A stretch of DNA of 38,860 nt from positions 1-38,860 of the IMG/VR virus record IMGVR_UViG_3300025011_002359; one strand, 5' to 3'. The notes under the pieces are model-generated. The model was not told the origin of the DNA and searched no databases. It saw only the letters and a list, made by a program, of their open reading frames with translations. The position numbers and the translations under genes are program-made. Below, piece by piece: positions 6,396 through 35,227 of the stretch; the stretch's first letter is position 1, and every line of letters begins with the position of its first letter. This DNA is from a virus.

Positions 6396-6432
6396 GAAAT
6401 TTTAATCGCTTGGGAACGGTTAGGGGAGACAT
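6371..6432. other. Candidate cos (packaging) region
   Basis: A C-tract (seven C's at 6376-6382) followed by TACCCCTGAG and, 30 bases on, GGTTAGGGGAGAC forms an imperfect inverted pair (CCCCTAxCC-type arms). It lies in an otherwise AT-rich stretch at the HNH stop codon and just before the second TerS-like gene. The GC-rich core, the inverted symmetry and the position next to HNH and terminase genes are all typical of cos sites. The cut positions cannot be read from sequence, so this is a placement hypothesis. Confidence 0.4.
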
Positions 6433-6480
6433 TTCCAATAGAGCGACCTTGAAAAAACTTTTTTGAAGGAGGTGGGGGGT

Positions 6481-11688: not shown

Positions 11689-11700
11689 GAGGTGGTATAA

Positions 11701-12266: not shown

Positions 12267-12268
12267 CC

Positions 12269-12967: not shown

Positions 12968-12980
12968 GGAGGGCATGCAA

Positions 12981-13559
12981 ATGTCAGAAAACAAAGTAGT
13001 TTATGGGTTACAAAACGTACATATCGCATTTAGAGACTATACTGAGGTGGGAACTCAGCCAATATGGAAAACACCAGTAGCGATAGCAGGTGCAGTAAAA
13101 TTTTCACCACAGGCACAAGGTGATAGCAATACATTCTATGCCGATAACTCTGCATACTTCGTTGTCACAGCAAACAATGGATATCAGGCAGAACTAGAAA
13201 TGGCTTTAATTCCAGATGCAATATTGCAGGAAATGATGGGATGGTCAGTTGATGATAATGGAATGTTAGTTGAGGAAGCAGATGCAACACCAAAGGAATT
13301 TGCATTACTCGGACAAGTTCAGGGAGATCAAAAGAGCAGAAGATTTGTGTACTATTCATGCACAGCACAAAGACCATCAAAGGAACATAATACCAAGGGA
13401 GAAAATCTTGATCCTGCAACAGATACACTGTCACTCACGATAGTTCCAGTAGATATCGCAGGTAAGAAAATAACAAAAGGAACACTTGAACTGAATGCAA
13501 CAAATGCGACAACATATAATGCGTTCTTCAATTCAGTTTATAAACCAATATTCGAATAA
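12981..13559 (+). CDS. Major tail protein (phi13/TP901-1 type)
   Basis: The tail-tube subunit is recognised by VVYGLQNVHIAFRD at the start and GAVKFSPQAQGDSNTFYADN with YFVVTANNGYQAELEMALIPDAIL in the middle. ALLGQVQGDQKSRRFVYYSC and a closing TLSLTIVPVDIAGKKITKG strand pair follow. This is the phi13/TP901-1 major tail family. Length and position before the chaperone pair are normal. ATG 12981 is 7 bases behind AAGGAGGG; ATG 12975 is only one base away and is less likely. Confidence 0.88.
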   Translation: MSENKVVYGLQNVHIAFRDYTEVGTQPIWKTPVAIAGAVKFSPQAQGDSNTFYADNSAYFVVTANNGYQAELEMALIPDAILQEMMGWSVDDNGMLVEEADATPKEFALLGQVQGDQKSRRFVYYSCTAQRPSKEHNTKGENLDPATDTLSLTIVPVDIAGKKITKGTLELNATNATTYNAFFNSVYKPIFE

Positions 13560-13576
13560 GATGGAGGGAAATACAT

Positions 13577-13921
13577 ATGGCTAGAGATTTAAAAATAGGA
13601 GATAAGGAGATAAGAGTTAGGGCGACACCTCTAACTCTTTTGTTTTATAAACAAGAATTTAAAAGCGACTTCATGGGGGACATGGCAAAGCTAGAAAAGA
13701 TAAAAGACAGTATGGTGAACTTAGACACGACACTGTTCTTACAGATGATATGGGCAATGAATAAATCAGACTCGTATCCACAGTCGTTCCCAAACTTTAT
13801 GGACTGGTTAGGTTCGTTTGAGAGTATCGATTTATCAGATACAGCACTTTATGAAGTGACTATGGAGGAAGCGGCAGCAGGCTTTTTTCGTGGAAAGTAC
13901 ACACCAACAAGAAGCAAATAG
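13577..13921 (+). CDS. Tail assembly chaperone, short form (gpG-like)
   Basis: A 114-residue mostly helical protein between the major tail and tape measure genes, the position of lambda gpG. It binds the tape measure during tail assembly and is not expected in the virion. Its 3' end overlaps a second frame (13890-14108) that has no convincing ribosome-binding site. A T6 run in the overlap (13883-13888, read as TTT TTT in this frame) is the probable slip point, giving a 176-residue fusion. ATG 13577 follows GGAGGG. Confidence 0.82.
   Translation: MARDLKIGDKEIRVRATPLTLLFYKQEFKSDFMGDMAKLEKIKDSMVNLDTTLFLQMIWAMNKSDSYPQSFPNFMDWLGSFESIDLSDTALYEVTMEEAAAGFFRGKYTPTRSK
13880..13892 (+). promoter_or_regulatory. 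Probable programmed frameshift site
   Basis: The sequence reads GGC TTT TTT CGT in the chaperone frame. A +1 step from TTT to TTC (tRNA-Phe re-pairing with overlapping UUC), or a -2 slip on the T6 run, would continue as GTG GAA in the second frame. That second frame is open back to 13860, so the slip must occur between there and the first-frame stop at 13919. The net shift differs from the common -1 of lambda. No hairpin was identified downstream. Confidence 0.55.
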
Positions 13922-14108
13922 TAATGAAGTAGATGAAAATATAGAACTAACAATCTTGGTGATAGGGAAAAAGTCAGGACTTAACTTTGAGGAAATAAAT
14001 CAATTACGAGTTGGTGACATTTTAAAGTTTGCTAGAATCTACAACGGAAACAGTACACAAAAAAGCAGACAAGCAAATCAAACAGATATTGATACATTCT
14101 ATGCCTAG
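13890..14108 (+). CDS. Tail chaperone frameshift extension (gpT-like)
   Basis: This 72-codon reading frame is open through the end of the short chaperone and ends 14 bases before the tape measure. It encodes VESTHQQEANSNEVDENIEL then a helical GLNFEEINQLRVGDILKFARIYNG segment, the usual composition of gpT-type extensions that contact tape measure. The codon at 13890 is GTG with no Shine-Dalgarno at a proper distance, so translation by frameshifting from the upstream gene is more likely than independent initiation. The fused product would be about 176 residues. Confidence 0.72.
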   Translation: MESTHQQEANSNEVDENIELTILVIGKKSGLNFEEINQLRVGDILKFARIYNGNSTQKSRQANQTDIDTFYA

Positions 14109-14122
14109 GGGGTGATAGAACA

Positions 14123-16843: not shown

Positions 16844-18249
16844 TGACTGAAATAAAGATAAAGCCAACAGGGCAGCAAGAAGCTGAAACCATAGTTTACT
16901 ATGACTCGTGCAGAGTAAATAGTTCTAAAACAGAAAGAGCAGGAAGTTTCAGCATAATACTTCCATTCAAGAAAGATGATGATATCAGTAAATACACTAT
17001 CGGAACAGATGTACAAATAAATCAAGACGGTCATAAGTTCAGAGGTTATGTTACCAACCCACCGAAGAAAAGTAATTATCTAGTAAAATCAGTTACCCTT
17101 GAAGGCTTTGACTATACAGCAAAAACACAGAAAATAATAGTATCTGAAAGCTATTCAAATATCCCAGTGAGTACAGTGGTGAATAGTCTATTTGCTAAAT
17201 ATGTTCCTTGGGTTACGAGAAACAAGATACAAGGAAATACACGTAATCTAACGATACGATTTGCTGATACTTACCTTTGGGATGCAATGGAACAGATATG
17301 CAACCTGACAGGATATGACTGGTGCATAGATGAAAATCTAGATCTCAACTTCTCCAAAACAGCCAATTCTATTAATGAAAATGTACTTACAGTTGATAAA
17401 TACAAGAGAGGTACTACTACATTTACACATAGTGCTGAAAAGCTAGTGAATAAGCTATGGGTGAAAGGCTCGAAGAAACTAAGCTTACCATACACACAAA
17501 ACATAACTGTAAGCGGAACTATTCCAATATCACTACACTATACACCGAGAGTTGCAGATGATGAAACAATAACAGTGACGATTGGTGGAATTCAAAAGAC
17601 ACTTGGAATACAAAACATAACTCAAGCAGGGACTAAAGACTTTTTGGTAAACTCAAACGAAAAGCTCTTGGTTCCTGATTTATGTGTATCGGGATCTGGA
17701 ACGATAGTGTATCGATATGAGTATCCTATTAAAATATTGCTCGAGGATAAAGTAAGTCAAGGACAGTATGGTTTATATGAAGATATCCTTGACGTAGAAA
17801 CTGATAATAAATTTCTAGCGAAGGAAACGGGAGCAAACTATCTTGAAAAGTATTCAAAACCAGTTATCAATGGAAGTCTAGAGCCTTTTAACGGAATATA
17901 CAGAGTAGGGGAACTAGTAAAAATTGAAATACCAAGTCTAAATATCAACGACTACCTACTGATAAAAGATGTAACTTACGAATCAATCAACAAGATCGCA
18001 ATGGTGAACAGAAAAATAACACTCGAGAGTACACAGATGGATATCGCAAGCATTCTAAAGAACATGAACAAACGGATAGCTAAAATAGAGACAGCGTTAT
18101 TCGGTACAAGCGGTGATACGCTAGTAGAAAAATACAATGTATATTATGATGCAATAAATGTACCGAAACTTGAAGAGAAAATGAACTATAATCTACACAA
18201 TTATTTAGTTGGTGGAGCAAATATGATGGTAGGTAATTTTGTAATTTAG
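16843..18249 (+). CDS. Tail baseplate hub / tail-associated protein
   Basis: A 468-residue beta-rich protein with a gp27-like hub pattern. The first 100 residues include DSCRVNSSKTERAGSFSIILP and a barrel strand TDVQINQDGHKFRGYV. A middle domain with YLWDAMEQICNLTGYDWCIDENLDLNF is the 'li..la...gy.w.id.dg.l.f' signature of hub and XkdQ/Tal-like proteins. A C-terminal helix (about 400-430, NMNKRIAKIETALFG) may trimerise. No peptidase motif is visible. It follows the tape measure directly (TAATG overlap), with no separate distal-tail gene between them. Confidence 0.72.
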   Translation: MTEIKIKPTGQQEAETIVYYDSCRVNSSKTERAGSFSIILPFKKDDDISKYTIGTDVQINQDGHKFRGYVTNPPKKSNYLVKSVTLEGFDYTAKTQKIIVSESYSNIPVSTVVNSLFAKYVPWVTRNKIQGNTRNLTIRFADTYLWDAMEQICNLTGYDWCIDENLDLNFSKTANSINENVLTVDKYKRGTTTFTHSAEKLVNKLWVKGSKKLSLPYTQNITVSGTIPISLHYTPRVADDETITVTIGGIQKTLGIQNITQAGTKDFLVNSNEKLLVPDLCVSGSGTIVYRYEYPIKILLEDKVSQGQYGLYEDILDVETDNKFLAKETGANYLEKYSKPVINGSLEPFNGIYRVGELVKIEIPSLNINDYLLIKDVTYESINKIAMVNRKITLESTQMDIASILKNMNKRIAKIETALFGTSGDTLVEKYNVYYDAINVPKLEEKMNYNLHNYLVGGANMMVGNFVI

Positions 18250-18260
18250 AGGTGATCGAT

Positions 18261-18593
18261 TTGATAACGAGTCAAGGCAATGCTCTAGTCCTTAATGAAG
18301 TTATAGCAGAAACAATAGACAAGATAACTATTATGAGCTTGAGAGATAAAAATGGTGAGTTTTTTAGAAAGCTAGCAACAGATATAACAGAGGTAAGTGG
18401 AGTAAAAAATGTTTATACCTTCTATTTAAATGAAAATGAAGGCAATGGAAATATTGTAGAAGTAGGCTTACATGGAAATGGAGCAACAACTACTCTAGGC
18501 AGTGGTATGTGCTATGCAACACAATCGCTAATAATAAATAAAGATAATACTCAAAGTCTAAATATAGACTGGACTGTGGAGGTGAAACAGTGA
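18261..18593 (+). CDS. Small tail protein, unknown
   Basis: A 110-residue beta-rich protein (KITIMSLRDKNGEFF, VYTFYLNENEGNGNIVEVGLHG, TTTLGSGMCYATQSL, then SLNIDWTVEVK). It sits between the hub and the fibre gene and is co-translated with both. Similar small proteins occupy this place in clostridial siphophages and are probably baseplate or fibre-attachment components, but I cannot name a characterised family. TTG 18261 is chosen because AGAGGTGAT precedes it at good spacing; GTG 18252 lies inside that site. It overlaps the next start by one base. Confidence 0.6.
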   Translation: MITSQGNALVLNEVIAETIDKITIMSLRDKNGEFFRKLATDITEVSGVKNVYTFYLNENEGNGNIVEVGLHGNGATTTLGSGMCYATQSLIINKDNTQSLNIDWTVEVKQ

Positions 18594-19765
18594 TGCCGTA
18601 TACACCAAGAGTTTGGAAAGATGGACAGAATAAATACGATATAACTGACCAATTAGGGAATGTAATACAATCGGATGTTAAACTAATATATAAAGGTACT
18701 GAAGGAACTCCTGTAAGTGCAGCAAACATGAATCAAATTGAACAGGCACTAGCTGTAATGCCAGATAAAGCAACTCAAGTAGAGGCTGAAGCTGGAATAG
18801 ATGATACAAAGTATATGACTTCTTTAAAGGTTAAACATGCAGTAACAAAGCTCGACAATAATGTTGATGGACTCATGTATGATGTTGAAAAGTTATATGA
18901 AACTCTATTCGCACAATCGCTTGTAAACTCTACATACTTAGATAATGCAGAAACTTTAGCAATTAATACAACAATACAAACTAATAATGAAACATCAACC
19001 GCAATGGGAGATATTAGACCAAATAGTGTAGTTCCATTGACTGGAACATGGAATGGTACTCCAAGCTCATTATATGATGGGGATACAACAACAACAGGAG
19101 GTACATATTACAATCCTGGAGGGGTATTGGGTAGCTTTAAAATTGTATTCCCAACTCCTATAAATTTTTCAACTTTAGTAACATGGAGGTATGGTGCAAG
19201 AAGTCCAACTTTAACATATAAAGCTTATGATAGTAACAATGTTCAAGTAGGAACAACTCAAAATGATACAATTACAAGCCAGAGTATTCATCAAAATAAT
19301 ATAAGTTTTGGTAGTGTGAGAAATGTGAAATACATAGTAATAGAACATACAGGTGGAAGTTCAGGATACACGGACTGGTGGGTTAGATTTACGGAAATTT
19401 ATGCAACTGGAGTAACATCATATGCCATACAAGAATTTGAAAACGTAGTATTTAATAAAACCTTTGATTTTGATATAAAGGAATTAACCTTCTTGATGAC
19501 AAAGAAAGCACCAACTGGATATACAATTGGTGATGTTATACCTTATATAAGTATAAATGGAGGGACTGTATGGTTACCAATGATAAAAAAAGAAAACCAT
19601 GCATATGTTTATGACACATCGTACACGGAAGACGTATATACTTATAAAATTACTCAAAGCGGAATCAAAAATATTAGAATTAAACAAGTGTGGAACACTT
19701 TTGGTGCTACAACAAGAACAACCGCAGGTAAAAAAGTATTGATGACTGCTACAAGGGAGGAGTGA
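18593..19765 (+). CDS. Tail fibre / receptor-binding protein with discoidin-like domain
   Basis: The N-terminal 60 residues (TPRVWKDGQNKYDITD, then GTPVSAANMNQIEQAL) match the attachment module common at the start of Firmicute tail fibres. A coiled segment follows at about 60-110. Residues about 130-275 look like a beta-sandwich of the F5/8 type C (discoidin) kind: SSLYDGDTTTTGGTYYNPGG, then SFKIVFPTPINF, and a closing WWVRFTEIYATG strand. Such domains usually bind glycans, so this is probably the receptor-binding tip. A second beta domain ends the protein. ATG 18593 overlaps the previous TGA and follows GGAGGTGAAAC. Confidence 0.7.
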   Translation: MPYTPRVWKDGQNKYDITDQLGNVIQSDVKLIYKGTEGTPVSAANMNQIEQALAVMPDKATQVEAEAGIDDTKYMTSLKVKHAVTKLDNNVDGLMYDVEKLYETLFAQSLVNSTYLDNAETLAINTTIQTNNETSTAMGDIRPNSVVPLTGTWNGTPSSLYDGDTTTTGGTYYNPGGVLGSFKIVFPTPINFSTLVTWRYGARSPTLTYKAYDSNNVQVGTTQNDTITSQSIHQNNISFGSVRNVKYIVIEHTGGSSGYTDWWVRFTEIYATGVTSYAIQEFENVVFNKTFDFDIKELTFLMTKKAPTGYTIGDVIPYISINGGTVWLPMIKKENHAYVYDTSYTEDVYTYKITQSGIKNIRIKQVWNTFGATTRTTAGKKVLMTATREE

Positions 19766-19767
19766 AT

Positions 19768-19944
19768 ATGAAGGTTATTGAAAAGATAAAAGATGGAATT
19801 ATTTATTTTAAGAATGAAAAAAGTGAAACAGAAATAATGCAAGATCAAATAGATGAATTACTAATTATGAATCTTGAACAAAGTATGATGATAAACGATT
19901 TAGCAGTGATATCCCTTGGAGGTGATAATGGTGTGGTACAGTAG
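19768..19944 (+). CDS. Small phage protein, coiled coil, unknown
   Basis: A 58-residue acidic helical protein (KDGIIYFKNEKSETEIMQDQIDELLIMNLEQSM). It lies immediately after the fibre gene and overlaps the XkdX-like gene by 17 bases. ATG 19768 follows GGGAGGAGTGA. Small helical proteins at this point of Firmicute phage genomes commonly precede an XkdX homologue, but none has a demonstrated function known to me. Its frame and strong ribosome-binding site support it as a real gene. Confidence 0.6.
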   Translation: MKVIEKIKDGIIYFKNEKSETEIMQDQIDELLIMNLEQSMMINDLAVISLGGDNGVVQ

Positions 19945-20065
19945 ATTAAAATATTTATATCAAAGAGATAAAATAACCGAAAGACATCTAGAAGAAGCAG
20001 TGATTAATAACCTAATTACAGAAGTACAAAAACAAGAAATTATAAAATCTAAAGACTTACACTAG
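19928..20065 (+). CDS. XkdX-like small phage protein
   Basis: A 45-residue protein, beginning VWYSRLKYLYQRDKITERHL and continuing with LITEVQKQEIIKSKDLH. The opening WYxRlKxLYxxxxIt and the short two-helix layout match the XkdX family of PBSX-like and other Firmicute phages, found between tail fibre and holin. Function is unknown. ATG 19928 lies behind GGAGGTGATA, inside the 3' end of the previous gene. The stop codon sits in the loop of the following terminator hairpin. Confidence 0.62.
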   Translation: MVWYSRLKYLYQRDKITERHLEEAVINNLITEVQKQEIIKSKDLH

Positions 20066-20076
20066 TCTTTTTTATT
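20051..20076 (+). terminator. Intrinsic terminator overlapping the XkdX-like stop
   Basis: AAAGACT (20051-20057) pairs with AGTCTTT (20064-20070), a 7-bp stem with a 6-base loop, followed by T's. The stop codon of the XkdX-like gene (20063-20065) lies in the loop and 3' arm. It sits at the junction of the tail and lysis modules, so partial termination or read-through here could set lysis-gene expression. Confidence 0.6.
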
Positions 20077-20098
20077 TTGCTAAAAGGGAGTTGAGAGT

Positions 20099-20515
20099 GT
20101 GGACAAGCAAAACGAAATACTCAACACAATAAAAATATTAGCAGGAACTACAGGAATGTTTGTAAGTGAGCTGATGGGAGGGTGGGATATGTTTTTAAAG
20201 GCATTGCTCTTAATGATAATAATTGACTATGCCACAGGAGTACTCAAAGCAATATATCTTAAAGAGTTATCAAGTGAAATAGGATACAAAGGCATAATCA
20301 AAAAAGTGGTGATGCTTTTAGTTGTAGTAATTGCCTGCCAGATAGATGCGCTTGTAGGTACAGATAATGCACTTAGAACAGGGACGATATTCTTTTGGAT
20401 AGCAAATGAAGGAATAAGCATCCTAGAAAATGCAGCAAAAATGGGAGTGCCTGTACCAAAGCAAGTAAAGGATGCGTTGTTAAAATTAAAAAATGAACAA
20501 GAAGGAGGGCGTTAA
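20099..20515 (+). CDS. Holin (TcdE-like, phage_holin_4 family)
   Basis: A 138-residue membrane protein with about three hydrophobic segments: residues 27-48 (MFLKALLLMIIIDYATGVLKAI), 66-82 (IIKKVVMLLVVVIACQID) and a weaker one near 96-112. The motif DYATGVLKAIYLKELSSEIGYKGI is the signature of the holin_4/TcdE family, with KV.mL as the next segment. It permeabilises the membrane so the adjacent amidase can reach the wall. A GTG start at 20099 and the soluble basic tail are normal. It precedes the amidase by two bases of spacer. Confidence 0.88.
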   Translation: MDKQNEILNTIKILAGTTGMFVSELMGGWDMFLKALLLMIIIDYATGVLKAIYLKELSSEIGYKGIIKKVVMLLVVVIACQIDALVGTDNALRTGTIFFWIANEGISILENAAKMGVPVPKQVKDALLKLKNEQEGGR

Positions 20516-20517
20516 AA

Positions 20518-21240
20518 ATGAGTAAAAAAATAATAATCGATCCAGGGCATTATAAAAATTGCCCGAACAAAGGAAGGAATGGTTATAATGAAGGAAATGG
20601 AGTATTTAAAATAAGTACATATTTAAAACAAGAGTTAGATAGGCATGGTTTTGTTACCATATTGACAAGGCAAGACACAACGCAAGAAGTATCCCTAACT
20701 ACAAGAGGGAAAATGGCAGCTGGTGCAGATTTATTTATAAGTGAGCATTCAAATGCTAATGATGGAACTTGCAGAGGTGTGGAAGTGTTTTATAGCATAG
20801 ACTTGCCAGATGATAAGATATTGGCAGGAAACCTATCTAAATCAATATCCTCATTAATGGGAAACATAAATAGAGGTGCAAAGATAAGAGAAAGCACAGT
20901 AGAAAAAGGAGAAGACTACTATACAGTCATAGATACAGCACAGGATGTAGGGTGCAAGAATGTGGTATTAGTTGAGAATGGATTTCATGATAATTTGATT
21001 GATGAAGCATTTTTGCTGAAGGATAATAATTTGAAGTTAATTGCAAAAATACAAGCAAAAGTAATATGTGATTTCTTTGGAGTAGCATATGTTGAACAAG
21101 CATATACACAATTAAGCCGAGATATAGATATACTTGCAAGTGCAGGGATTATAGATAGCCCAGAGTATTGGAAAAGAGGATCAGAATATAAAATAGAGTA
21201 TGTACAAGCATTAATACATAAGGTAGCAGGATTTATTTAA
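20518..21240 (+). CDS. Endolysin: N-acetylmuramoyl-L-alanine amidase (Amidase_3)
   Basis: A zinc amidase of the Amidase_3 family. KIIIDPGHYKNCPNKG gives the first zinc His and YNEGNGVFKISTYL the zinc Glu. ADLFISEHSNANDG gives the second His, and VLVENGFHDNLIDEAFL contains the catalytic Glu. The catalytic domain ends near residue 180. The remaining ~55 residues (SRDIDILASAGIIDSPEYWKRG plus a C-terminal helix) look like a short wall-binding or accessory domain. It has no signal peptide, so export depends on the holin. ATG 20518 follows AAGGAGGG, and the gene ends the late region. Confidence 0.92.
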   Translation: MSKKIIIDPGHYKNCPNKGRNGYNEGNGVFKISTYLKQELDRHGFVTILTRQDTTQEVSLTTRGKMAAGADLFISEHSNANDGTCRGVEVFYSIDLPDDKILAGNLSKSISSLMGNINRGAKIRESTVEKGEDYYTVIDTAQDVGCKNVVLVENGFHDNLIDEAFLLKDNNLKLIAKIQAKVICDFFGVAYVEQAYTQLSRDIDILASAGIIDSPEYWKRGSEYKIEYVQALIHKVAGFI

Positions 21241-21254
21241 AGTAGATAAATAAC

Positions 21255-21296
21255 AAGGGATTAGCTCAGTAAAATGAGTTTAATCCCTTATTTTTT
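21255..21296 (+). terminator. Late-region terminator
   Basis: AAGGGATTA (21255-21263) pairs with TAATCCCTT (21281-21289). An inner CTCA/TGAG extension follows, with a small bulge, then a T-rich run. The strong stem closes the lysis module and marks the boundary between the conserved phage genes and the accessory region. Confidence 0.85.
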
Positions 21297-21349
21297 ATTT
21301 ATAAGAAATTCACTCTAGTAATTTTTGCGTAAAAAAAATATTAAAACTA

Positions 21350-21378
21350 TTGACAATATTTACAAATCGGTATATACT
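21350..21378 (+). promoter_or_regulatory. Sigma-A-type promoter of the accessory operon
   Basis: TTGACA (21350-21355) is followed after 17 bases by TATACT (21373-21378), very close to consensus. Its -10 box lies inside a perfect inverted repeat. It drives the 126-codon gene at 21411 and probably the three small genes after it. Confidence 0.82.
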
Positions 21379-21398
21379 GTATATATCAGTATATACCG
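21368..21398 (+). promoter_or_regulatory. Operator: perfect 12-bp inverted repeat over the -10 box
   Basis: CGGTATATACTG (21368-21379) and CAGTATATACCG (21387-21398) are exact reverse complements separated by the 7-base spacer TATATAT. The left arm covers the -10 element and the right arm runs to the start region. This is the geometry of an autoregulatory repressor site, and the first and second gene products below are both small ribbon-helix-helix-like proteins. Confidence 0.75.
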
Positions 21399-21410
21399 AG
21401 GAGGTTTTCT

Positions 21411-21791
21411 ATGAAAACATATTTATTAAAACTAGAAGATGAAGAAAAAGAGGTGTTAGATATATATACTAAGTATATAAAACGTTCAGAATCGTTCAAG
21501 AGCTATATAATGAATTTAATATATTCTGATATGAGTGAAAATCTAATAGCTATTGGTGCATCCATAGATGCAGATATATTTAAATGCAGTGATTTTATAG
21601 ATTTTATAGAAAAACGAGTAGTGGAAAATGAAGATTTAAAGTTTTTAGAGGAAAGCAGAAAAACTGCTACTGATAAAGAAATGATTAAGACTTTAGATAT
21701 AGCAATTAAGAATATGAAGGGTAAAAATTCTGAAAAGGAAATAAAAGAAGTTAAGCAAGCTATAGAAGTTTATAGAAGAAAATATGAATAA
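21411..21791 (+). CDS. Ribbon-helix-helix-like regulator candidate, 126 aa
   Basis: The N-terminus resembles a ribbon-helix-helix fold: a strand KTYLLKLED, then EEKEVLDIYTKYI and a second helix SESFKSYIMNLIYSD. Residues about 45-126 are helical and strongly charged, and may be a partner-binding or dimer domain. It is the first gene behind the perfect inverted-repeat operator, so autorepression is a reasonable inference. The following gene is another short RHH-type protein. A toxin-antitoxin or plasmid-type control role is possible but no toxin motif is visible. ATG 21411 follows GAGGAGG. Confidence 0.5.
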   Translation: MKTYLLKLEDEEKEVLDIYTKYIKRSESFKSYIMNLIYSDMSENLIAIGASIDADIFKCSDFIDFIEKRVVENEDLKFLEESRKTATDKEMIKTLDIAIKNMKGKNSEKEIKEVKQAIEVYRRKYE

Positions 21792-21803
21792 AGGAGTGAT
21801 AAT

Positions 21804-21980
21804 ATGGCTGGAAGACCAATTAAAGAAAAAACAAGGATCAGAAAAAACTATACTACAACAGTAGACGAGGAGTTACTAAAACAAGCAAAAATATATGCAG
21901 TTATACATGGCAAAAATACAAATGATATTATAGAAGAAGCTTTATCTGTTTTCTTGGCACTAAAGAAAGTGACTGAATAA
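21804..21980 (+). CDS. Ribbon-helix-helix DNA-binding protein, 58 aa
   Basis: A basic start (AGRPIKEKTRIRKN) precedes the classic short RHH pattern. The strand is NYTTTVDEEL, helix one is LKQAKIYAVIHGK, and helix two is TNDIIEEALSVFLAL. The length and the 'D-E-L..qak.yA...g....iIEeAl' pattern are typical of CopG/Arc-like repressors and of antitoxins. ATG 21804 follows AAAGGAGTGAT, 12 bases after the previous stop, so the genes are co-transcribed. It could bind the upstream inverted repeat alone or as a hetero-oligomer. Confidence 0.7.
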   Translation: MAGRPIKEKTRIRKNYTTTVDEELLKQAKIYAVIHGKNTNDIIEEALSVFLALKKVTE

Positions 21981-22022
21981 ATTAAATAATAAAAGGATTC
22001 AGAAAAAATACGGAGGATAATT

Positions 22023-22391
22023 ATGAAAAATGATATTGAAAAAGTACTAAAACATTTTAGTGAAAAAGGGTGGAAATTAGACTCAGATTATGATATATAC
22101 ACTAACGGTATCAAGAAAGGTAGTAAAATAAATCATTACTTGAATGTAGCATTTAAAGCTAAAGATAATAAAGATGAGATTGAATATTTAGAATCTGAAG
22201 GATGGTTTGAAAAACAAAAGTATAAAAATGAAGATGGAGACCCTACAATATGGGGGACAAATGAGATGGGACATAATTTGAGTCATAGTATATTAATGAT
22301 AATTATGTCAAAAGATTTAGTGGGAGATTATGAACAAGTAACTAATATCTTATATGTACTAAGAAAGCCTTATGAAACAAATGAGTTATAG
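22023..22391 (+). CDS. Unknown 122-aa protein of the accessory operon
   Basis: An alpha/beta protein with a conserved-looking EYLESEGWFEKQKYKNEDGDPTIWG segment and a LSHSILMIIMSKD helix. Strongly AT-rich, it lies 42 bases after the RHH gene and 11 before the next gene. I do not recognise a family. Its ATG follows GGAGGATAATT. With its neighbours it could be a regulated accessory or immunity unit, but that is only context. Confidence 0.5.
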   Translation: MKNDIEKVLKHFSEKGWKLDSDYDIYTNGIKKGSKINHYLNVAFKAKDNKDEIEYLESEGWFEKQKYKNEDGDPTIWGTNEMGHNLSHSILMIIMSKDLVGDYEQVTNILYVLRKPYETNEL

Positions 22392-22402
22392 GGGGAAGGA
22401 AA

Positions 22403-22687
22403 ATGATAATAGTAAAAGTATCAGAACTAAAGTCTATGGTAAAGGAATTAGAGAAAGATGGCTATGATTATGTTGAGGTTAGTATATTAGATAATAAAGA
22501 TGAAGATGATTTACCAAATTGCTTATGCTTTTCAGCGTTAGATGGATACGGTGGGGCGGTAGATTTCGACGATATTGAAGAATCTAATGTGGGATTTTCA
22601 TATAAAGCTGAAGAAGAATATGAAAGAAAGTTAAAAAAACAAGAAGAAAGAATGGTTATAGATTTAAATCCAAATAAAAAGAAATAA
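22403..22687 (+). CDS. Unknown acidic 94-aa protein
   Basis: The acidic N-terminal part (IIVKVSELKSMVKELEKDGYD, then VEVSILDNKDEDDL) is followed by a glycine-containing ALDGYGGAVDFDDIEE segment and a very charged helical tail ending KKK. Its ATG follows GGGGGAAGG. It is the last gene before the intrinsic terminator at 22732, so it closes the small operon. No family is recognised. Confidence 0.5.
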   Translation: MIIVKVSELKSMVKELEKDGYDYVEVSILDNKDEDDLPNCLCFSALDGYGGAVDFDDIEESNVGFSYKAEEEYERKLKKQEERMVIDLNPNKKK

Positions 22688-22731
22688 AGTAAATTTACAT
22701 ATACAAGTTTTTTAATAAAGATGAATAAAAA

Positions 22732-22758
22732 AAGTAGAAAACAATTTCTGCTTTTTTT
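22732..22758 (+). terminator. Intrinsic terminator of the small operon
   Basis: AAGTAGAAA (22732-22740) pairs with TTTCTGCTT (22745-22753) across a 4-base loop, with one G-T wobble, followed by T's. It isolates the RHH operon from the Ku gene, which therefore needs its own promoter. Confidence 0.65.
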
Positions 22759-22789
22759 ACTTTAAAACACAACAGATGTTTGCTGCATG

Positions 22790-22819
22790 TAATATTAACT
22801 CAAATTTCATCACATAATA
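22790..22819 (+). promoter_or_regulatory. Possible forespore (sigma-G-like) promoter for Ku
   Basis: CATAATA at 22813-22819 resembles the sigma-F/G -10 element. It lies 18 bases after TAATA (22790-22794), a one-mismatch -35. In Bacillus subtilis the Ku and ligase genes belong to the sigma-G regulon, which is why this weak match is worth noting. It sits 20 bases before the Ku start. No vegetative promoter was seen here. The match is short and could be chance in AT-rich DNA. Confidence 0.25.
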
Positions 22820-22838
22820 ACAAAAAAGGGGTGATAAA

Positions 22839-23660
22839 ATGGCAGCTAGAACTAAAACAGCAATATCTTTCGGTCTTGTTCATATACCGATAAGTTTACA
22901 CATTGCTACAACCGATAATGACATTCATTTCAATCAGCTTTGTAAAGAGGACAATAGTCGTGTTAGATATAAAAAGACATGCGGTAATTGTGGAGAAGAA
23001 ATAAAAGAAGATGATATTGTAAAAGGCTTTGAATATGATAAAGATAAGTATGTAATTATAGATGAAGACGATATTGAAAAGATAAAAACTGAAAAAGACA
23101 AAACAATAGAAATATTACATTTCACTAATATAGATCAAATTAGTCCTATTTTTTATGAAAAAACTTATCATGCCGTACCAGAACTAAATGGAGATAAAGC
23201 GTTTGAGTTATTAAGACGAGCAATGATGGATGAACAAAAAATAGCAATCGCTCAAACAGTTCTTGGTACAAAAGAAACATTACTTGCGTTAATACCTCGG
23301 GAAGACGGTTTGCTTATACAAACGATGTTTTATAATGATGAGATAAAAGAGATACCTAAAACATACTCTAAGCAAGACATATCAGAACCTGAACTTAATA
23401 TGGCTAAAACCCTAATTACATCAATGGTCAAACCTTTTGAGCCCGAACAATACAAAGACAGGTATCAAGAAAAGCTTAAAGACATGATATCGAAAAAGAT
23501 CGCAGGTCAAGAGATCGTCGTTAGAAAAGATGAGAAATTTAATAACGTTATAAATTTAATGGATGCATTAAAGCTAAGTATAGAAAAAAATAAACCGTCA
23601 ACAAAAACATCATCATCAACGAAAACAAAGACAACTAAAAGGACGGCGGTAGTAGGCTAA
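22839..23660 (+). CDS. ku: Bacterial Ku protein (NHEJ)
   Basis: A 273-residue Ku homologue. It opens with ISFGLVHIPISLHIATTDND, the family's start motif, then HFNQLCKEDNSRVRYKKTCGNCG and KGFEYDKDKYVIIDEDDI. The central HFTNIDQISPIFYEKTYHAVP and the later ALLALIPRE-like region complete the core. The last ~25 residues are Ser/Thr/Lys-rich, as in the basic tail that threads DNA in many bacterial Ku proteins. Ku binds double-strand ends as a homodimer and recruits ligase. The stop overlaps the ligase ATG (TAATG), so the two are made together. Start ATG 22839 follows AAGGGGTGAT. Confidence 0.94.
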   Translation: MAARTKTAISFGLVHIPISLHIATTDNDIHFNQLCKEDNSRVRYKKTCGNCGEEIKEDDIVKGFEYDKDKYVIIDEDDIEKIKTEKDKTIEILHFTNIDQISPIFYEKTYHAVPELNGDKAFELLRRAMMDEQKIAIAQTVLGTKETLLALIPREDGLLIQTMFYNDEIKEIPKTYSKQDISEPELNMAKTLITSMVKPFEPEQYKDRYQEKLKDMISKKIAGQEIVVRKDEKFNNVINLMDALKLSIEKNKPSTKTSSSTKTKTTKRTAVVG

Positions 23661-24613
23661 TGGATATTTTTGAAACTAAAGATATCGCCCCGATGTTAAT
23701 TTTTGATAAAAATCAAAAACCTTTTAATTCAGATGAATTTTATTTTGAATTAAAATTTGATGGTATACGTTGTTTAGCTTATTTATCAGATGAGGGTGTT
23801 GAACTTAGAAATAAACGGAATAAAAGAGTAACAGATACTTATCCTGAATTAAATTCAATTCATAAGCAAGTAAAAAAACGTTGCATTCTTGATGGAGAAG
23901 TTTTTGTGATGGAAAAGGGTAGACCTAACTTTTTTGAGGTGCAGCGTAGAAGCCTTATGACAAATAAAATAAAAATATCTCTCGCTGCAGGAAGGCTACC
24001 TGTTTGCTTTGCCGCATATGATGTACTTTATGCTGGTAACGAGCAAATTACGGATAGACCATTATCTGAACGTAAAAAAATTCTTTCTGACTTAGTTAAT
24101 GAAACTCCCTTTTTGGTGGTCTCAAGAGTATTTAAAAAAGAAGGTATAGCTTTGTACAATGCTGCTGAACAACAGGGATTAGAAGGTATTGTTGCAAAGA
24201 AAAAGGATAGCAAGTATTACTTTGGCAAACGATCTAAGGATTGGATAAAAATAAAAGCCCTTATTGATGAGGATTTTATTGTGTGCGGATACTTTCAAAA
24301 AAGTGATTCTATAATTAGTGTTTTAATAGGTAGCTACAGTGAAAAGAATATTGTATATAGAGGTCATATAAGTTTGGGAATATCTAGGGTAGATTATGGA
24401 ATAATGCAATCAACATCTAGAGCATCGAACTTAGTTTATCCCGAATTTCCCAATTTTGAGAATGTAGTTTGGTTACAACCTGTACTTGTATGTAATGTAC
24501 AGTATATGGAGGAAACTGAAAGTGGAGGATTAAGACAGCCTGTTTTTAAAGGGTTAAGAGATGATGTTTTACCTGAAAATTGTATATACCAAAATAATAT
24601 AGTGGAAGTCTAA
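23660..24613 (+). CDS. ATP-dependent DNA ligase (LigD ligase-type)
   Basis: This 317-residue enzyme contains only the nucleotidyltransferase and OB-fold. The adenylated lysine is K32 in ELKFDGIR. LDGEVFV (about 78-84) is motif III, LEGIVAKKK (about 174-182) is motif IV and DWIKIKA (about 194-200) is motif V. The remaining residues form the OB-fold. Bacterial LigD often adds polymerase and 3'-phosphoesterase domains; both are missing here. With Ku it should form a minimal double-strand-break rejoining pair. It ends just before a strong bidirectional hairpin. Confidence 0.92.
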   Translation: MDIFETKDIAPMLIFDKNQKPFNSDEFYFELKFDGIRCLAYLSDEGVELRNKRNKRVTDTYPELNSIHKQVKKRCILDGEVFVMEKGRPNFFEVQRRSLMTNKIKISLAAGRLPVCFAAYDVLYAGNEQITDRPLSERKKILSDLVNETPFLVVSRVFKKEGIALYNAAEQQGLEGIVAKKKDSKYYFGKRSKDWIKIKALIDEDFIVCGYFQKSDSIISVLIGSYSEKNIVYRGHISLGISRVDYGIMQSTSRASNLVYPEFPNFENVVWLQPVLVCNVQYMEETESGGLRQPVFKGLRDDVLPENCIYQNNIVEV

Positions 24614-24622
24614 TATTTAGTA

Positions 24623-24654
24623 AAAAATAGCATATTTAAAAATATGCTATTTTT
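24623..24654. terminator. Strong symmetric terminator after the Ku-ligase pair
   Basis: AAAAATAGCATATTT (24623-24637) and AAATATGCTATTTTT (24640-24654) are perfect reverse complements. They carry an A-run on one side and a T-run on the other, so the hairpin can stop transcription from both directions. It isolates the NHEJ cassette from the next gene. Confidence 0.82.
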
Positions 24655-25624: not shown

Positions 25625-27178
25625 GTGGAACTTAAAAATGAAATGAAAATCACAATAGCAAATGTACCACTACAGTGGATACCTAAAATTGAGGTTTACT
25701 ATACTGATTTGCCACAATTTCCAATTATGTATATACACGTTGTTAAAAATGGAATGCGGATAATTGGTTGTCCAGTTTCCGTAAGTTTCGACATTAAAGA
25801 GGATTGTTGTGATGCACAATTTACAGTTCTAACTAATGTAGAAACAGGGGATGAGTTTGCTTGCAATATTTTAAAAAGCGAATTAAGTGAAAGAATAGGT
25901 TATTCTCATAAAATATCAAAGGAAGATATATTATCATATTGCAAAGGAAATAGGGAGTATGAGGCATTCTTTGAAGATTTATGGACATACATTAAGTTGT
26001 CTTACGGAGATTATATTCCATTTGGTCAGTTTTATGAAGAAGTCTACTCAATGATAAGGTTTGTTTCAGCTTGGCAACCCAAAACTGGTAGACAAAGTGA
26101 AATGAGGATGTTATATAATTTTATGAGTGCATTTGGGGAAAGGGTAGAATTTAATCAAAAATGGGAACATCTAGAGTACTATCTTTTGCCTACATACCAA
26201 GATATAGCTACAAATACATTAGATGAATTTCCAATATATAAAAGGTTATTTAATGCAATGAAAAAAGTGTTTAATCTAGACTTTACAAAAAACGTGGAAA
26301 TATCAGGGCATAGTTTTAAATCTCAAATTAGTGCTTGGCCACAAAATAAAGAGGACTTTATGCAAGGCGTAACTAATAAATATTTAGCAACGAACGATAT
26401 AGATGCAGAAGATAAGAGATCTTTAGATACCTTGGTAGATGCATTTAATCGTCACGGATGGAGAGCAGCATTTTATACAAGCGCAGCTATAAATATAATT
26501 ACAAATGATTATAAAACATGGGAAAAGGACTTTTTTAAAGAGGTTTATTCTAATGGTAATAAGTTGAAAGGCTATTCAGAAAAGGTAATTGCCTGCTTTT
26601 TACAACAAGGCTTTGAAAAAGATGAAATAATACCTATAGACACATGGATTGAAACATTTCATCAATATGCACTGGGAATTGTTGATAGAAACGATTTTTA
26701 TAATAGCTTTGATAAACTTGGGAAAATAGAGAGGGTTATATGGTTAGCTAGTCAGGCTAACAAAACAAATATGAAGGCTTTCTTTGATGTCTTATGGTGC
26801 CAAAGGTATGGAACAATAGGAAATTCAGATTTAAGAGGAATAAATCCAATCGCATGTTGCGAATGTAAATTAAAGGGGACATGTGTTGGATTGAGTAAAT
26901 GTAATACAGCTAAAGTAGTATTGCACTCTGGAGATGTAGAGGCAAGTGAAATTAGTAAAGTTATTACTGAAAAGGGTCTCCGAATCAAAGATATTTTGTT
27001 TTTCTGCACACTTGAAAATTCGATACCTAAAAAAGTATATAGGAAGTATGAACATAAAGGTAAAATTGAATGGCACCTGAATGATGAGTTTTCAGGATAT
27101 ATTTTAAATGATGCTGTTACAGAAGAAATGTTATCGGCAGATAGTGTTTCAATGAGTGAGTTTGTTAATTATAGATAG
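25625..27178 (+). CDS. HhH-GPD (endonuclease III-like) protein in R-M locus
   Basis: A 517-residue protein whose residues about 305-430 read as an HhH-GPD DNA-glycosylase module. GYSEKVIAC places a lysine (K320) where endonuclease III has its catalytic Lys, and PIDTWIETF places Asp339 where endonuclease III has VDTH. The 19-residue Lys-Asp spacing is close to the 18 in Nth. A cysteine cluster follows (411, 414, 420, 426; C-x2-C-x5-C-x5-C), resembling but not matching the Nth iron-sulfur loop. Residues 1-300 have no recognised domain. The gene lies 31 bases before a cytosine-5 methylase. A likely role is G:T mismatch repair at deaminated methylcytosine, or base-excision restriction. GTG 25625 follows AAAGGAG. 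Confidence 0.6.
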   Translation: MELKNEMKITIANVPLQWIPKIEVYYTDLPQFPIMYIHVVKNGMRIIGCPVSVSFDIKEDCCDAQFTVLTNVETGDEFACNILKSELSERIGYSHKISKEDILSYCKGNREYEAFFEDLWTYIKLSYGDYIPFGQFYEEVYSMIRFVSAWQPKTGRQSEMRMLYNFMSAFGERVEFNQKWEHLEYYLLPTYQDIATNTLDEFPIYKRLFNAMKKVFNLDFTKNVEISGHSFKSQISAWPQNKEDFMQGVTNKYLATNDIDAEDKRSLDTLVDAFNRHGWRAAFYTSAAINIITNDYKTWEKDFFKEVYSNGNKLKGYSEKVIACFLQQGFEKDEIIPIDTWIETFHQYALGIVDRNDFYNSFDKLGKIERVIWLASQANKTNMKAFFDVLWCQRYGTIGNSDLRGINPIACCECKLKGTCVGLSKCNTAKVVLHSGDVEASEISKVITEKGLRIKDILFFCTLENSIPKKVYRKYEHKGKIEWHLNDEFSGYILNDAVTEEMLSADSVSMSEFVNYR

Positions 27179-27209: not shown

Positions 27210-28304
27210 ATGTTGAAAGTATTTGAAGCATTTGCGGGTTATGGGAGTCAGAGGATGGCATTAAGAAATTTGCAAATACCTCATGAAGTAGTAGGTATAT
27301 CAGAAATTGAAGGAGATGTGCTATTATCATATGCAGCGATTCATAGTGATTTCTTAAATTTAAGAAAAGAGATCAATAAGTGGATTCCAGATGATGATGA
27401 AGAAATATATAAATATTTAGAAGAGATTAATGTGCCATTAGATTATAAGACATTTGAAAACAGGGCAAGGAAGCTAAAAAAAGATAAATTACAAGAGATG
27501 TATTTGGCTAATAAGCTAATAAATAATTATGGTGATATTCTACGTATTGATCCAGCTAAACTGCCAGATTTTGATTTATTTACTTACTCGTTTCCTTGCC
27601 AAGATATTTCTGTAGCAGGTTATCAGAATGGGTTTAATGCTGATTCAGGCACCAGATCATCTTTACTTTGGGAATGCTGCAAAATTATTGAGACAAAAAA
27701 ACCAAAGTATCTTATGATGGAAAATGTTAAGAATTTGATTGGATGCAATCATAAAAAAAACTTTGAAAAATTCTTGGAATATCTTGAGTCTATTGGATAC
27801 AAAAATACATGGGGAATTTTGAATGCACGTAATTTTGGAATACCACAGAACCGAGAAAGAGTTTTTTGTATTAGTGTTTTGGATCATTCCATTGATTTCA
27901 AATTCCCTGAACCAGTACAACTAAAAAAAGTCTTAAAGGATGTCCTAGAGGAAAATGTAGAAGATTCTTTCTATTTGAAAAAGGGTCAGGTTATGGATAA
28001 CGAAATTAATCAAGTAGTAAGCTACTGCTTAGATGCTAATTATTGGAAAGGTGTTACATTGCAAGACTTTTTAGCAAAACATAGAAGGCAATTAGTTACT
28101 GACAAGAAAAATGCTGAGGGAAAGTTTATGGTAAGAAGGCTAAAACCTGTAGAGACGTGGAGATTAATGGGGTGCAGTGATAATGACTTTTATAAAGCAA
28201 GCCAATTGGTTAGTAATACAAGCCTATACAAGCAGGCTGGAAATAGTATTGTAGTATCAGTATTAGAGGCAGTTTTTAGAAGTTTATTTTCAGATAAAAA
28301 GTAA
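27210..28304 (+). CDS. DNA cytosine-5 methyltransferase (type II R-M)
   Basis: A complete m5C methylase of 364 residues. Motif I is FEAFAGYGSQ and motif IV is SFPCQDIS (catalytic Cys130). Motif VI is MMENVKNL (ENV 171-173), motif VIII is PQNRERVF, and motifs IX and X are RRLKPVETWRLMG and KQAGNSIVVSV. The target-recognition region lies at about residues 225-305. An unusual insert of some 60 residues (about 55-110) separates motif I from the PCQ region. It lies between the glycosylase-like gene and the MvaI/BcnI-type endonuclease and presumably protects one strand or one base of that site. ATG 27210 follows AAAAGGAGC. Confidence 0.92.
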   Translation: MLKVFEAFAGYGSQRMALRNLQIPHEVVGISEIEGDVLLSYAAIHSDFLNLRKEINKWIPDDDEEIYKYLEEINVPLDYKTFENRARKLKKDKLQEMYLANKLINNYGDILRIDPAKLPDFDLFTYSFPCQDISVAGYQNGFNADSGTRSSLLWECCKIIETKKPKYLMMENVKNLIGCNHKKNFEKFLEYLESIGYKNTWGILNARNFGIPQNRERVFCISVLDHSIDFKFPEPVQLKKVLKDVLEENVEDSFYLKKGQVMDNEINQVVSYCLDANYWKGVTLQDFLAKHRRQLVTDKKNAEGKFMVRRLKPVETWRLMGCSDNDFYKASQLVSNTSLYKQAGNSIVVSVLEAVFRSLFSDKK

Positions 28305-28306
28305 GC

Positions 28307-28323
28307 AAGTAATGAGATTACTT
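28307..28323. promoter_or_regulatory. Small palindrome before the endonuclease gene
   Basis: AAGTAAT (28307-28313) and ATTACTT (28317-28323) are exact reverse complements around GAG. The repeat fills the gap between the first methylase and the endonuclease. It could be an operator for controlling endonuclease expression or a weak attenuator hairpin; no T-run follows. Confidence 0.35.
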
Positions 28324-28358
28324 AAGTGGCTCTATTGAGCGGAAAGGAGAAATATATT

Positions 28359-29168
28359 ATGACTGCAAAAGAGAAAATTTTAGAATTGTTTTACAGAAAC
28401 GTTAAAGGAAGAATATCTGATACTGAAGGAAGGAACACACGACATGATGGTAGAGAGGGACATTGGTTAGAACAACAGTTTGGTATTACTGCTAATGCAA
28501 ATAATGAGTCTGATTTTATGGGATATGAATTGAAGGATGAAACAACATCTAAAACAACTTTCGGTGATTGGTCTGCGAATCAATATGTGTTTACTATGCC
28601 CGAATATAGTCAATTATTTATTGGAAGTGCAAAATACCAAAAGCAAGATAGCTTTTTGAAAATATTCGGAAGACCAAATCCTGAAAAAAATGAGCGTTAT
28701 TCTTGGTCAGGAACTCCATGTCCTAAAATAGGACACTATAATGCATATGGCCAAAGACTTGAAATAACTGATACTAAGGATATTATTGCTGTTTATTCTT
28801 ACAGTCATGATCAGAGAACAGATAAATCTTTAATTGTTCCAATTGCTTTACAGATAGAACATCTAGTTATTGCAAGATGGTATGGTATTTCTTCACCTTC
28901 TACAAGACGTACGGACAAGTGTTTAAAAGAAAAGTTGGAAGATAAATTTAATCACGAGGGTTGGTTTACATGTAAAAAAGATGCTTCAGGTGCATACACT
29001 AAAATATGCTTTGGTAAGCCAGTAAATTATGATGAATGGTTAAGACTTGTTGAACAGGGTATAGTCTTTTTTGATAGTGGAATGTATGAGGGTAATGTAC
29101 GACCATATTCTCAATGGAGAGCTAACAATAATTTCTGGAATAGTTTAATTACAGAAGTGCACGAATAA
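28359..29168 (+). CDS. Restriction endonuclease, MvaI/BcnI (CCNGG-like) family
   Basis: A 269-residue protein of the MvaI/BcnI/LlaMI type. Asp52, Glu57 and Lys59 in SDFMGYELKDE give the D-x4-E-x-K arrangement described for MvaI. The preceding GHWLEQQFGITANANNES and the following TTFGDWSANQYVF are family signatures. Members cut CCWGG, CCSGG or CCNGG as monomers. Flanking by two cytosine-5 methylases resembles the lactococcal ScrFI-type CCNGG system. ATG 28359 is chosen over an upstream GTG because GGAAAGGAGA precedes it. It ends before a terminator that separates it from the convergent methylase. Confidence 0.88.
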   Translation: MTAKEKILELFYRNVKGRISDTEGRNTRHDGREGHWLEQQFGITANANNESDFMGYELKDETTSKTTFGDWSANQYVFTMPEYSQLFIGSAKYQKQDSFLKIFGRPNPEKNERYSWSGTPCPKIGHYNAYGQRLEITDTKDIIAVYSYSHDQRTDKSLIVPIALQIEHLVIARWYGISSPSTRRTDKCLKEKLEDKFNHEGWFTCKKDASGAYTKICFGKPVNYDEWLRLVEQGIVFFDSGMYEGNVRPYSQWRANNNFWNSLITEVHE

Positions 29169-29172
29169 GACT

Positions 29173-29219
29173 AAAAAAGTGTCTCATCAAATTCAATTAA
29201 AATGATGAGACACTTTTTT
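29173..29219. terminator. Bidirectional terminator between converging R-M genes
   Basis: AAAAAAGTGTCTCATCA (29173-29189) and TGATGAGACACTTTTTT (29203-29219) are perfect 17-bp reverse complements around a 13-base loop. They provide a T-run in both directions. The terminator serves the endonuclease (+) and the convergent methylase (-), whose stop codon (29219-29221) touches it. Confidence 0.92.
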
Positions 29220-30382
29220 TATTTTAACATACCGTGTGATTCCATAAAGATTATCATTTCTTTAGCGACAGCTTCCATTACAGGTATGGCTACAGAATTA
29301 CCGAATTGTTTATAAGCCTGAGTATTTGATACAGGAATAATAAAAGAATCAGGAAATCCTTGTAAACGTGCACATTCACGAGGGGTGAGCATACGGGGAT
29401 TTTTCCCTTTTTGTTCAATAAGAGCTTCACTACCATCCTTATAGTACCTTGCACTTATTGTATTAGTATAGCGGCTTTCTTCATTAAAAAGACAAAATCC
29501 AAATCCGTTTCCCTTTTCTTTATGTTGAGCTTTTCTTTCAAGATGACCTTTATATAAAGCATCAGAAATAGTAAATTTATGTGGAACTTCTTTTTCTAAT
29601 ATTGCTCCGACTTTTATAGGTGTTACACATTTATTCCCCTCAGGATATTCAAAAGGTATAGGCATTGGAGGTAAAAGACTTCTGTCAAATCCAACAATTA
29701 TAATTCTCTCTCTATTTTGTGGCACACCGAAATTTACAGCATTTAAAACTTGAGGTGTTGGTACATAATAGTTTAATTCTTCTAAGATATTAAGTATAGT
29801 TTTAAGTGTATTTCCACCATCATGTCCTCTGAGCTGCTTCACGTTTTCTAATAAAAATGCTTTGGGCCTTTTTGCTTTTATTATTCTAGCTACATCGAAA
29901 AACAATGTCCCTCTAGAATCCTCGAACCCTCTTTTAAGGCCTGCTTGTGAAAAAGGTTGGCATGGAAAACCGCCTAGTAATATATCATGGTCTGGAATCT
30001 CATTTTCATTTATTTTAGTTATATCTCCAGATGGTACTTCACCGTAATTGATACGATATGTTTTTTGAGAAAACTTATCCCATTCTGAAGAGAAAACAGT
30101 ATGACCACCTAATTTGTAGAATGCTTGTCTAATTCCACCTATTCCGGCAAATAAGTCAATAGTTGTAAATTTACTTTCACTTAAGGACCTATTTTTAAAT
30201 GGTGGATCTGTAGGAAATGATAAAACTTTGTTTAAAACATCTTTAGGAACTTCCATTGTACCTTCTTCCCAATGCTTTAATAATTTTTCATGCTCTTTTG
30301 GAAGGCGAAGAGCATCTGAGAACTCTTTTCTAGTAATATCTAAGCTTTTTCTAATATTTGTAATTAATTCATTGTTTTCCAT
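29219..30382 (-). CDS. DNA cytosine-5 methyltransferase with N-terminal HTH (regulatory)
   Basis: The only minus-strand gene. Residues about 5-60 are a helix-turn-helix (LDITRKEFSDALRLPKEHEKLLKHWEEG) fused to a complete m5C methylase. Motif I is TIDLFAGIGG, motif IV is GGFPCQPFSQAG, then LENVKQLRG, PQNRERIIIV, LTPRECARLQGFPDSF and KQFGNSVAIPV. This architecture is known from enzymes such as M.EcoRII, M.SsoII and M.ScrFIA, in which the HTH represses the enzyme's own promoter. ATG at 30382 is preferred because GAGG at 30392-30395 lies 9 bases upstream. It has its own promoter upstream. Confidence 0.92.
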   Translation of the reverse strand: MENNELITNIRKSLDITRKEFSDALRLPKEHEKLLKHWEEGTMEVPKDVLNKVLSFPTDPPFKNRSLSESKFTTIDLFAGIGGIRQAFYKLGGHTVFSSEWDKFSQKTYRINYGEVPSGDITKINENEIPDHDILLGGFPCQPFSQAGLKRGFEDSRGTLFFDVARIIKAKRPKAFLLENVKQLRGHDGGNTLKTILNILEELNYYVPTPQVLNAVNFGVPQNRERIIIVGFDRSLLPPMPIPFEYPEGNKCVTPIKVGAILEKEVPHKFTISDALYKGHLERKAQHKEKGNGFGFCLFNEESRYTNTISARYYKDGSEALIEQKGKNPRMLTPRECARLQGFPDSFIIPVSNTQAYKQFGNSVAIPVMEAVAKEMIIFMESHGMLK

Positions 30383-30455
30383 AGCCATCATCCTCATTTT
30401 ATGTTTTGAAATTTTAGTAACTAATATTGCTTGTATCACTCAATTACACTAGTAG

Positions 30456-32065: not shown

Positions 32066-32151
32066 AGTGTTTTGGATATTGAGATTAGATGAAGGTCTCC
32101 ACATACGGATATGTAAACAATAACAAGAAACTTATATAGGTGGGTGAGGTT

Positions 32152-35074: not shown

Positions 35075-35227
35075 AGAAAATACTGTGTGATATAATGAGA
35101 TATACATAGATATAAAAAAATAAATAGTATCCCACATCCGCTTACTGTTCAAAGGTCTGTGAGATACTATGAGATATTGTGAGATATAGGAAGATAAACG
35201 GTGGTAGAATACGATGCATGTGGAGAC
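35075..35227 (+). repeat. Diverged direct repeat, copy A, with 10-bp iterons
   Basis: This block aligns with 36431-36569: shared words include CAAAGG, CTGTGAGA, TTGTGAGATATAGGA and ACGATGCAT, with intervening substitutions. Inside it, three GAGATA units start at 35161, 35171 and 35181, exactly 10 bases apart. Equal spacing on one helical face is typical of binding sites for arm-type recombinase or replication proteins. It could be an attachment-site remnant. Confidence 0.65.

Follow-up and report, generated by a model that had tools for sequence, protein, structure and literature searches.

A prophage-borne Ku-ligase operon as a candidate polymerase-less end-joining module in a spore-forming Clostridia-type host

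Within the window, by which we mean the whole 38,860-nucleotide stretch of viral DNA analyzed here, a gene for a bacterial Ku protein is followed directly by a gene for an ATP-dependent DNA ligase, both located downstream of a phage lysis module (Table 1). The Ku stop codon (TAA) and the ligase start codon (ATG) share one base, giving the string TAATG. Overlaps of 1 or 4 bases also occur in most short-ligase relatives of the pair, and because the arrangement recurs in this way, we do not attribute it to chance.

Table 1. The Ku-ligase unit and its surroundings in window coordinates
Feature	Position	Strand	Evidence or remark
Holin	20099-20515		Just upstream of endolysin
Phage endolysin (N-acetylmuramoyl-L-alanine amidase), end of lysis module	20518..21240	+	PF01520, E 3.6e-23; phrog_435, E 7e-29
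Hairpin terminator closing late/lysis operon	21244..21300	+	-20.3 kcal/mol, T run
Hairpin terminator upstream of Ku	22726..22759	+	15-bp stem, -14.3 kcal/mol
Weak candidate sigma-G-like promoter, TAATA-18-CATAATA	22790..22819	+	Score 9 of 10; ~3-4% (about 1 in 25-35) by chance per region
Ribosome-binding site AAAGGGGTG ahead of Ku	22825..22833	+	Sequence
Ku protein, 273 aa	22839..23660	+	PF02735, TIGR02772, phrog_4873, bacterial Ku structures 9vnq and 8v53
ATP-dependent DNA ligase, 317 aa, nucleotidyltransferase and OB fold only	23660..24613	+	PF01068 and PF04679, TIGR02779, motifs, 1vs0
Hairpin terminator closing Ku-ligase unit	24623..24654	+	14-bp AT-rich stem, -13.1 kcal/mol, T run
C5 methylase, LlaMI-like endonuclease, and second C5 methylase	27210-30439		Start 2.6 kb downstream of the pair, same accessory arm
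attR core ACGATGCATGTGGAGAC (displaced rlmD 3' end)	35211..35227	+	Second copy, attL, at -2246; empty site in genome G001

The Ku protein matches the Pfam family at E 2.4e-49 and the NCBIfam model Ku_bact at 282.6 bits over residues 6-248, where the curated cut-off is 150. It also matches a phage family, phrog_4873, and its nearest solved structures are both bacterial Ku proteins. Its C-terminal tail is lysine-rich, and it is predicted to be a Ku of the bacterial homodimer type. The ligase consists of a nucleotidyltransferase domain (PF01068, E 2.1e-34) and an OB fold (PF04679, E 1.8e-12), with no further domain. All of its motifs are intact (motif I K32-FDG, RNKR, E175GIVAK, WIKIK, and RQPVFKGLR), and it thus has the complete nucleotidyltransferase motifs and OB fold that characterize the LIG domain of LigD. 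Its match to the NHEJ_ligase_lig model (E 1.5e-64, 218.1 bits) lies slightly under the cut-off of 227.75. When a profile of this ligase and its relatives was compared with the PDB, the closest entry was the ligase domain of Mycobacterium tuberculosis LigD. Neither the POL (primase-polymerase) domain nor the PE (phosphoesterase, PF13298) domain of LigD was found in the ligase, as an earlier sequence-only reading of this DNA had already proposed. The protein is not a recently trimmed LigD, since the ligase tree places it in a separate clade of Ku-paired short ligases, with an SH-aLRT support of 99 from a quick method on long branches. Short ligases of this kind (~310 aa) are only 28-32% identical to LigD ligase domains.

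Hairpin terminators on both sides suggest that the pair is probably its own transcription unit. The AT-rich hairpin that closes it is absent from the list of a consensus terminator scan, which requires 3 G-C pairs. The layout agrees with the sequence-only reading, which had described an overlapping Ku and ligase located 1.6 kb after the phage endolysin and closed by a terminator; the hairpin upstream of Ku had gone unmentioned there. Small genes of unassigned function fill the interval between the lysis terminator and Ku. On the 3' side of the ligase are, in order, an ASCH-like gene, genes for 143-aa and 517-aa proteins, and the methylase and restriction genes listed in Table 1. An Rfam search of the window gave no matches.

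The phage location of the pair is well supported. A 17-bp core, ACGATGCATGTGGAGAC, derived from the 3' end of rlmD, is present ~2.25 kb to the left of the window (attL) and again within the window as attR, and no copy lies between the two. When the left flank is joined to what lies right of position 35211, the uninterrupted rlmD end of a genome from the same genus is restored. Thus, att sites flank the pair, and removal of what they enclose yields the empty site, which places the Ku-ligase genes inside a prophage of ~37.5 kb and ~10.6 kb from its right end. Its gene content includes a terminase, portal, capsid, tape measure, holin, and endolysin, and genes resembling an integrase and an S24-type repressor can be read upstream of the window, beside the rlmD 3' end. 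The same att sites rule out the possibility that the prophage ends before 22.8 kb, which the sequence-only reading had named as the result that would overturn its view of a phage-carried accessory pair after the lysis module. A separate, tandem non-phage island carrying the pair is likewise ruled out by the absence of the core between -2246 and 35211. An 18-bp sequence, TGCCACCCGTTTGCCACC, was considered as the att core and dropped in favor of the 17-bp rlmD core. To the right, a second stretch of ~10.3 kb runs from 35211 to ~45522, past the end of the window, and is bounded by more copies of the rlmD 3' end, including the core at 45522, and by the same flanking arm. This stretch reflects tandem use of one attachment site.

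The host is a spore-forming Clostridia-type bacterium with a genome of 2.04 Mb, 97% complete. The prophage Ku is the sole Ku in this genome, and the prophage ligase is its sole ATP ligase above the family cut-off. No match to the LigD POL domain (TIGR02778) and no LigD PE domain (PF13298) were found in the 97%-complete assembly, and no NHEJ genes beyond the prophage pair were found in the host.

Two features expected of a moron are present: the pair lies between attL and attR, and its own terminator and flanking hairpins separate it from adjacent operons. Our preferred reading, to which we give a probability of roughly one-half, is that Ku and the ligase constitute a self-contained, polymerase-less NHEJ moron of a temperate siphophage, likely repairing the chromosome of the lysogen. 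Ku, expressed in the lysogen from a promoter of its own, would thread onto double-strand ends as homodimers, hold them, and bridge them. The ligase would then seal ends that are already ligatable, whether complementary or blunt, with a 5' phosphate and a 3' OH. Because POL, which fills gaps, and PE, which heals 3' ends, are absent from the pair, the predicted joining would be limited to ends that need neither filling nor healing. Recruitment of LigD by Ku is known to proceed largely via the POL domain (PMC7719229); since this main known route is missing here, contact between Ku and the short ligase is an assumption of the model. The proposed role would be repair of the lysogen chromosome and the resident prophage when only one genome copy is present, namely in stationary phase, the forespore, and the spore. 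That pairs of this kind also occur at non-phage genomic loci and on a plasmid favors a portable kit for host repair rather than a gene for phage replication. The use in a lysogen that the sequence-only reading had envisaged is supported as a possibility.

No sigma-A-like site was found in the 80 bases ahead of Ku, and the one candidate promoter there is the weak sigma-G-like site of Table 1. Across relatives, a sigma-G-like promoter lies ahead of 10 of 31 short-ligase Ku operons compared with 16 of 600 other genes (p ~6e-8), an enrichment that may be somewhat overstated because the background start sites were called mechanically. Shuffles gave an expectation of 1.3 such promoters for these operons, against 11 observed. 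In Bacillus subtilis, sigma-G turns on expression of Ku-LigD in the forespore (PMC3656841). Together, this precedent and the promoter enrichment make a spore-repair role for the window pair reasonable but unproven. The host encodes a SigG-like factor that scores 421.9 bits, below the strict cut-off of 457, and an adjoining second sigma-factor match is broken or split.

A different form of control, in which the pair would respond to DNA damage (SOS) and be induced along with the prophage, seems to us distinctly unlikely. It draws on one lineage of relatives (L014, L015, L016, L039, and L107) that has perfect GAACNNNNGTTC boxes and a divergent LexA or DinB gene, and on the related ligases of phages PVJ1 and SPbeta and plasmid CP141730, which adjoin DinB, LexA, or SRAP. 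However, the best SOS box upstream of the window Ku has 2 mismatches and is equaled in 40% of shuffles, neither DinB nor LexA is adjacent, and the boxes at the other loci may belong to the divergent gene. We therefore dropped SOS control of the window Ku.

It is useful to compare the pair with its relatives, most of which lie in genomes. We compared the 80 nearest genomic Ku loci, most of them in Clostridia-type genomes. A short ligase is present at 33 and a full LigD of ~812 aa at 34 (and likely one more), whereas at 12 no ligase was found in the stretch examined. The clade of Ku-paired ~310-aa ligases includes at least 33 genomic loci, one plasmid, and several viral contigs. Short-ligase loci are mostly of Clostridia type and mostly without recognized phage genes; in Clostridium lacusfryxellense (L039), the cassette sits among ordinary chromosomal genes. 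These loci qualify the sequence-only reading; the window pair itself is bounded by att sites. The commonest families at short-ligase loci are, in small counts, DinB-type polymerases (4 of 123 proteins), SRAP (3), integrases (3), and MobL relaxases (2). None of these is among the common neighbors of full-LigD loci, which belong mainly to metabolic families. The plasmid, CP141730.1 from Oscillospiraceae, has Ku, the short ligase, an 812-aa SIR2 family protein, and DNA polymerase IV adjacent to one another (18007-23879 of locus L191), together with a MobP3 relaxase.

Several viral contigs repeat the arrangement seen in the window. A Ku-short ligase pair lies within ~5 kb of an endolysin at five IMG/VR loci (L014, L015, L016, L019, and L021), and on three prophage-type contigs (L017, L018, and L025) a short ligase without Ku directly follows the endolysin, again within ~5 kb. 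In a 108-kb record (L022), the pair is found near ribonucleotide reductase and dUTPase. Several pairs are located at the extreme edge of predicted proviruses, three of which (L008, L019, and L020) start at the Ku ATG. Phage membership of these IMG/VR pairs is likely, and that of the window pair is firmer through its att sites and empty site. The PF03354 terminase proved too narrow as a marker of phage context for the relatives and was little used. Placing the 11 phage-labelled rows on the Ku tree takes five changes, each forced by well-supported branches. Phage-labelled copies thus occupy at least five places, which argues for repeated capture of the pair by phages. From these patterns we tentatively suggest, at well under even odds, that the distinct POL-less, Ku-coupled ligase clade represents a portable minimal NHEJ module on clostridial phages, plasmids, and other mobile elements. 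Phages would have acquired such a module on at least five occasions, often close to the lysis module, and it would give lysogens and spores an end-joining capacity that they otherwise lack.

The pair could instead consist of passenger genes that were acquired with flanking DNA and bring no particular benefit to either phage or host. This explanation, in which we place very little credence, would account for the sporadic presence of the pair within this phage group and for the long tree branch of the window Ku. Yet the two reading frames and every ligase motif remain intact although identity to relatives is only 45-67%, which indicates long selection, and separate phages have captured the pair repeatedly.

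The main rival to repair of the lysogen is that the pair serves the phage itself, either by circularizing or protecting the incoming linear genome or by repairing phage DNA. Mycobacteriophages offer a precedent, since their Ku is thought to aid genome recircularization (PMC4351075); that account, and Pitcher 2006 as cited in it, links phage Ku and short 4-base 3' ends to NHEJ recircularization. Clean cos ends would be a substrate that a polymerase-less pair could seal, and a ligase of its own would free the phage from needing a host LigD, and none was found here. On the other hand, terminators separate the Ku-ligase unit from the lytic operons, the unit lies in the accessory arm, and its relatives mostly reside in genomes away from recognized phage genes. 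Moreover, neither Ku nor the ligase was detected in ~60 loci of structural relatives of the phage, many of them partial and few extending past the endolysin. Given this absence from the stretches examined and the many genomic relatives without phage genes, the pair does not appear to be a cassette conserved across this phage group. We regard service to the phage as rather unlikely.

A further use within the lysogen would be to reseal cohesive breaks made by the neighboring restriction-modification genes or by other nucleases. The position of those genes in the same accessory arm and the fact that cohesive restriction ends can be joined without a polymerase are compatible with such a function. 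However, restriction-modification families are absent from the commonest neighbors of short-ligase Ku loci, and separate terminators and intervening genes split the two units in the window. We consider this function quite unlikely, and general repair of the lysogen chromosome remains our preferred reading. Encoded directly before the same restriction-modification genes is the 517-aa protein (25625-27178). Its match to an OGG/HhH-GPD glycosylase is weak (TIGR00588, E 0.0012), and its tail is rich in cysteines and resembles a 4Fe-4S site. It may be a mismatch glycosylase acting on deaminated 5-methylcytosine to repair it.

Phage-borne Ku of bacterial type is known from mycobacteriophages of the Omega/Corndog type. 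In our search of 50,697 phage records, Ku relatives were present in 49 mycobacteriophages and in one fecal fragment, in which no ligase was found; an earlier survey counted 11 Ku-bearing phages (PMC8136500). The window Ku is about 29-30% identical to mycobacteriophage Ku proteins, for example those of Optimus and Baka, over 91% of its length. Omega/Corndog-type Ku recruits the LigD of its host, whereas the window phage, which belongs to another phage group and infects another bacterial phylum, encodes its own ligase in a host where no LigD POL or PE domain was found. The system is thus distinct from the combination of phage Ku with host LigD. The B. subtilis YkoV-YkoU pair and other firmicute Ku-LigD operons resemble the window in having Ku adjoin an ATP ligase in an operon, possibly under sigma-G control. 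They differ in that the window ligase lacks POL and PE, is prophage-borne, and falls in a separate clade, with 28-32% identity to clostridial LigD ligase domains.

The pairing of Ku with a LIG-only ligase has been recognized as a category, "nonconventional NHEJ" (PMC7719229), and the window pair, with a ligase lacking both POL and PE, belongs to it. It differs from other nonconventional NHEJ and from stand-alone LigC-type repair in that its ligase gene overlaps that of Ku within a dedicated operon, which is also found on mobile elements; this comparison covered sequences other than Mycobacterium LigC. The same study found no NHEJ genes in compositionally alien chromosomal regions (PMC7719229). 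Other temperate phages carry accessory ATP ligases, including SPbeta LigB (yoqV), LigC of Psychrobacillus phage PVJ1, and the ligases of Rhizobium and Sinorhizobium phages. These are 27-32% identical to the window ligase and form separate clades, so that it stands apart from yoqV and PVJ1 LigC in a quick tree with long branches; no Ku was found in the phages that carry them. The literature searched, which lay mostly outside subscription journals, yielded no account of phages carrying a Ku-ligase operon in Clostridia. Both enzymes belong to known kinds, and what has been little described is phages that carry both Ku and ligase into hosts with no other copy.

Bacterial NHEJ is patchy in its distribution, and its spread by horizontal transfer is hard to see. 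A prophage that gives Ku and a ligase to a host with no other NHEJ genes offers a direct view of one transfer route, and the lack of a polymerase makes such a pair a natural test case for the minimal needs of end joining. If expressed in forespores, the pair would amount to lysogenic conversion for the survival of the spore genome.

Finally, three observations touch on neighboring subjects. The last large gene before attR encodes a 934-aa protein (32140-34944) that has no match in Pfam, PADLOC, or NCBIfam. In PVJ1 (L196), the LigC-type ligase lies between lysozyme/holin genes and genes for LexA and DinB that run divergently, a site of the type that Ku-ligase pairs occupy in clostridial phage contigs. 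The 19-kb plasmid pTVN carries Ku and a full LigD beside a type III-A CRISPR system (4350-17576 of locus L192).
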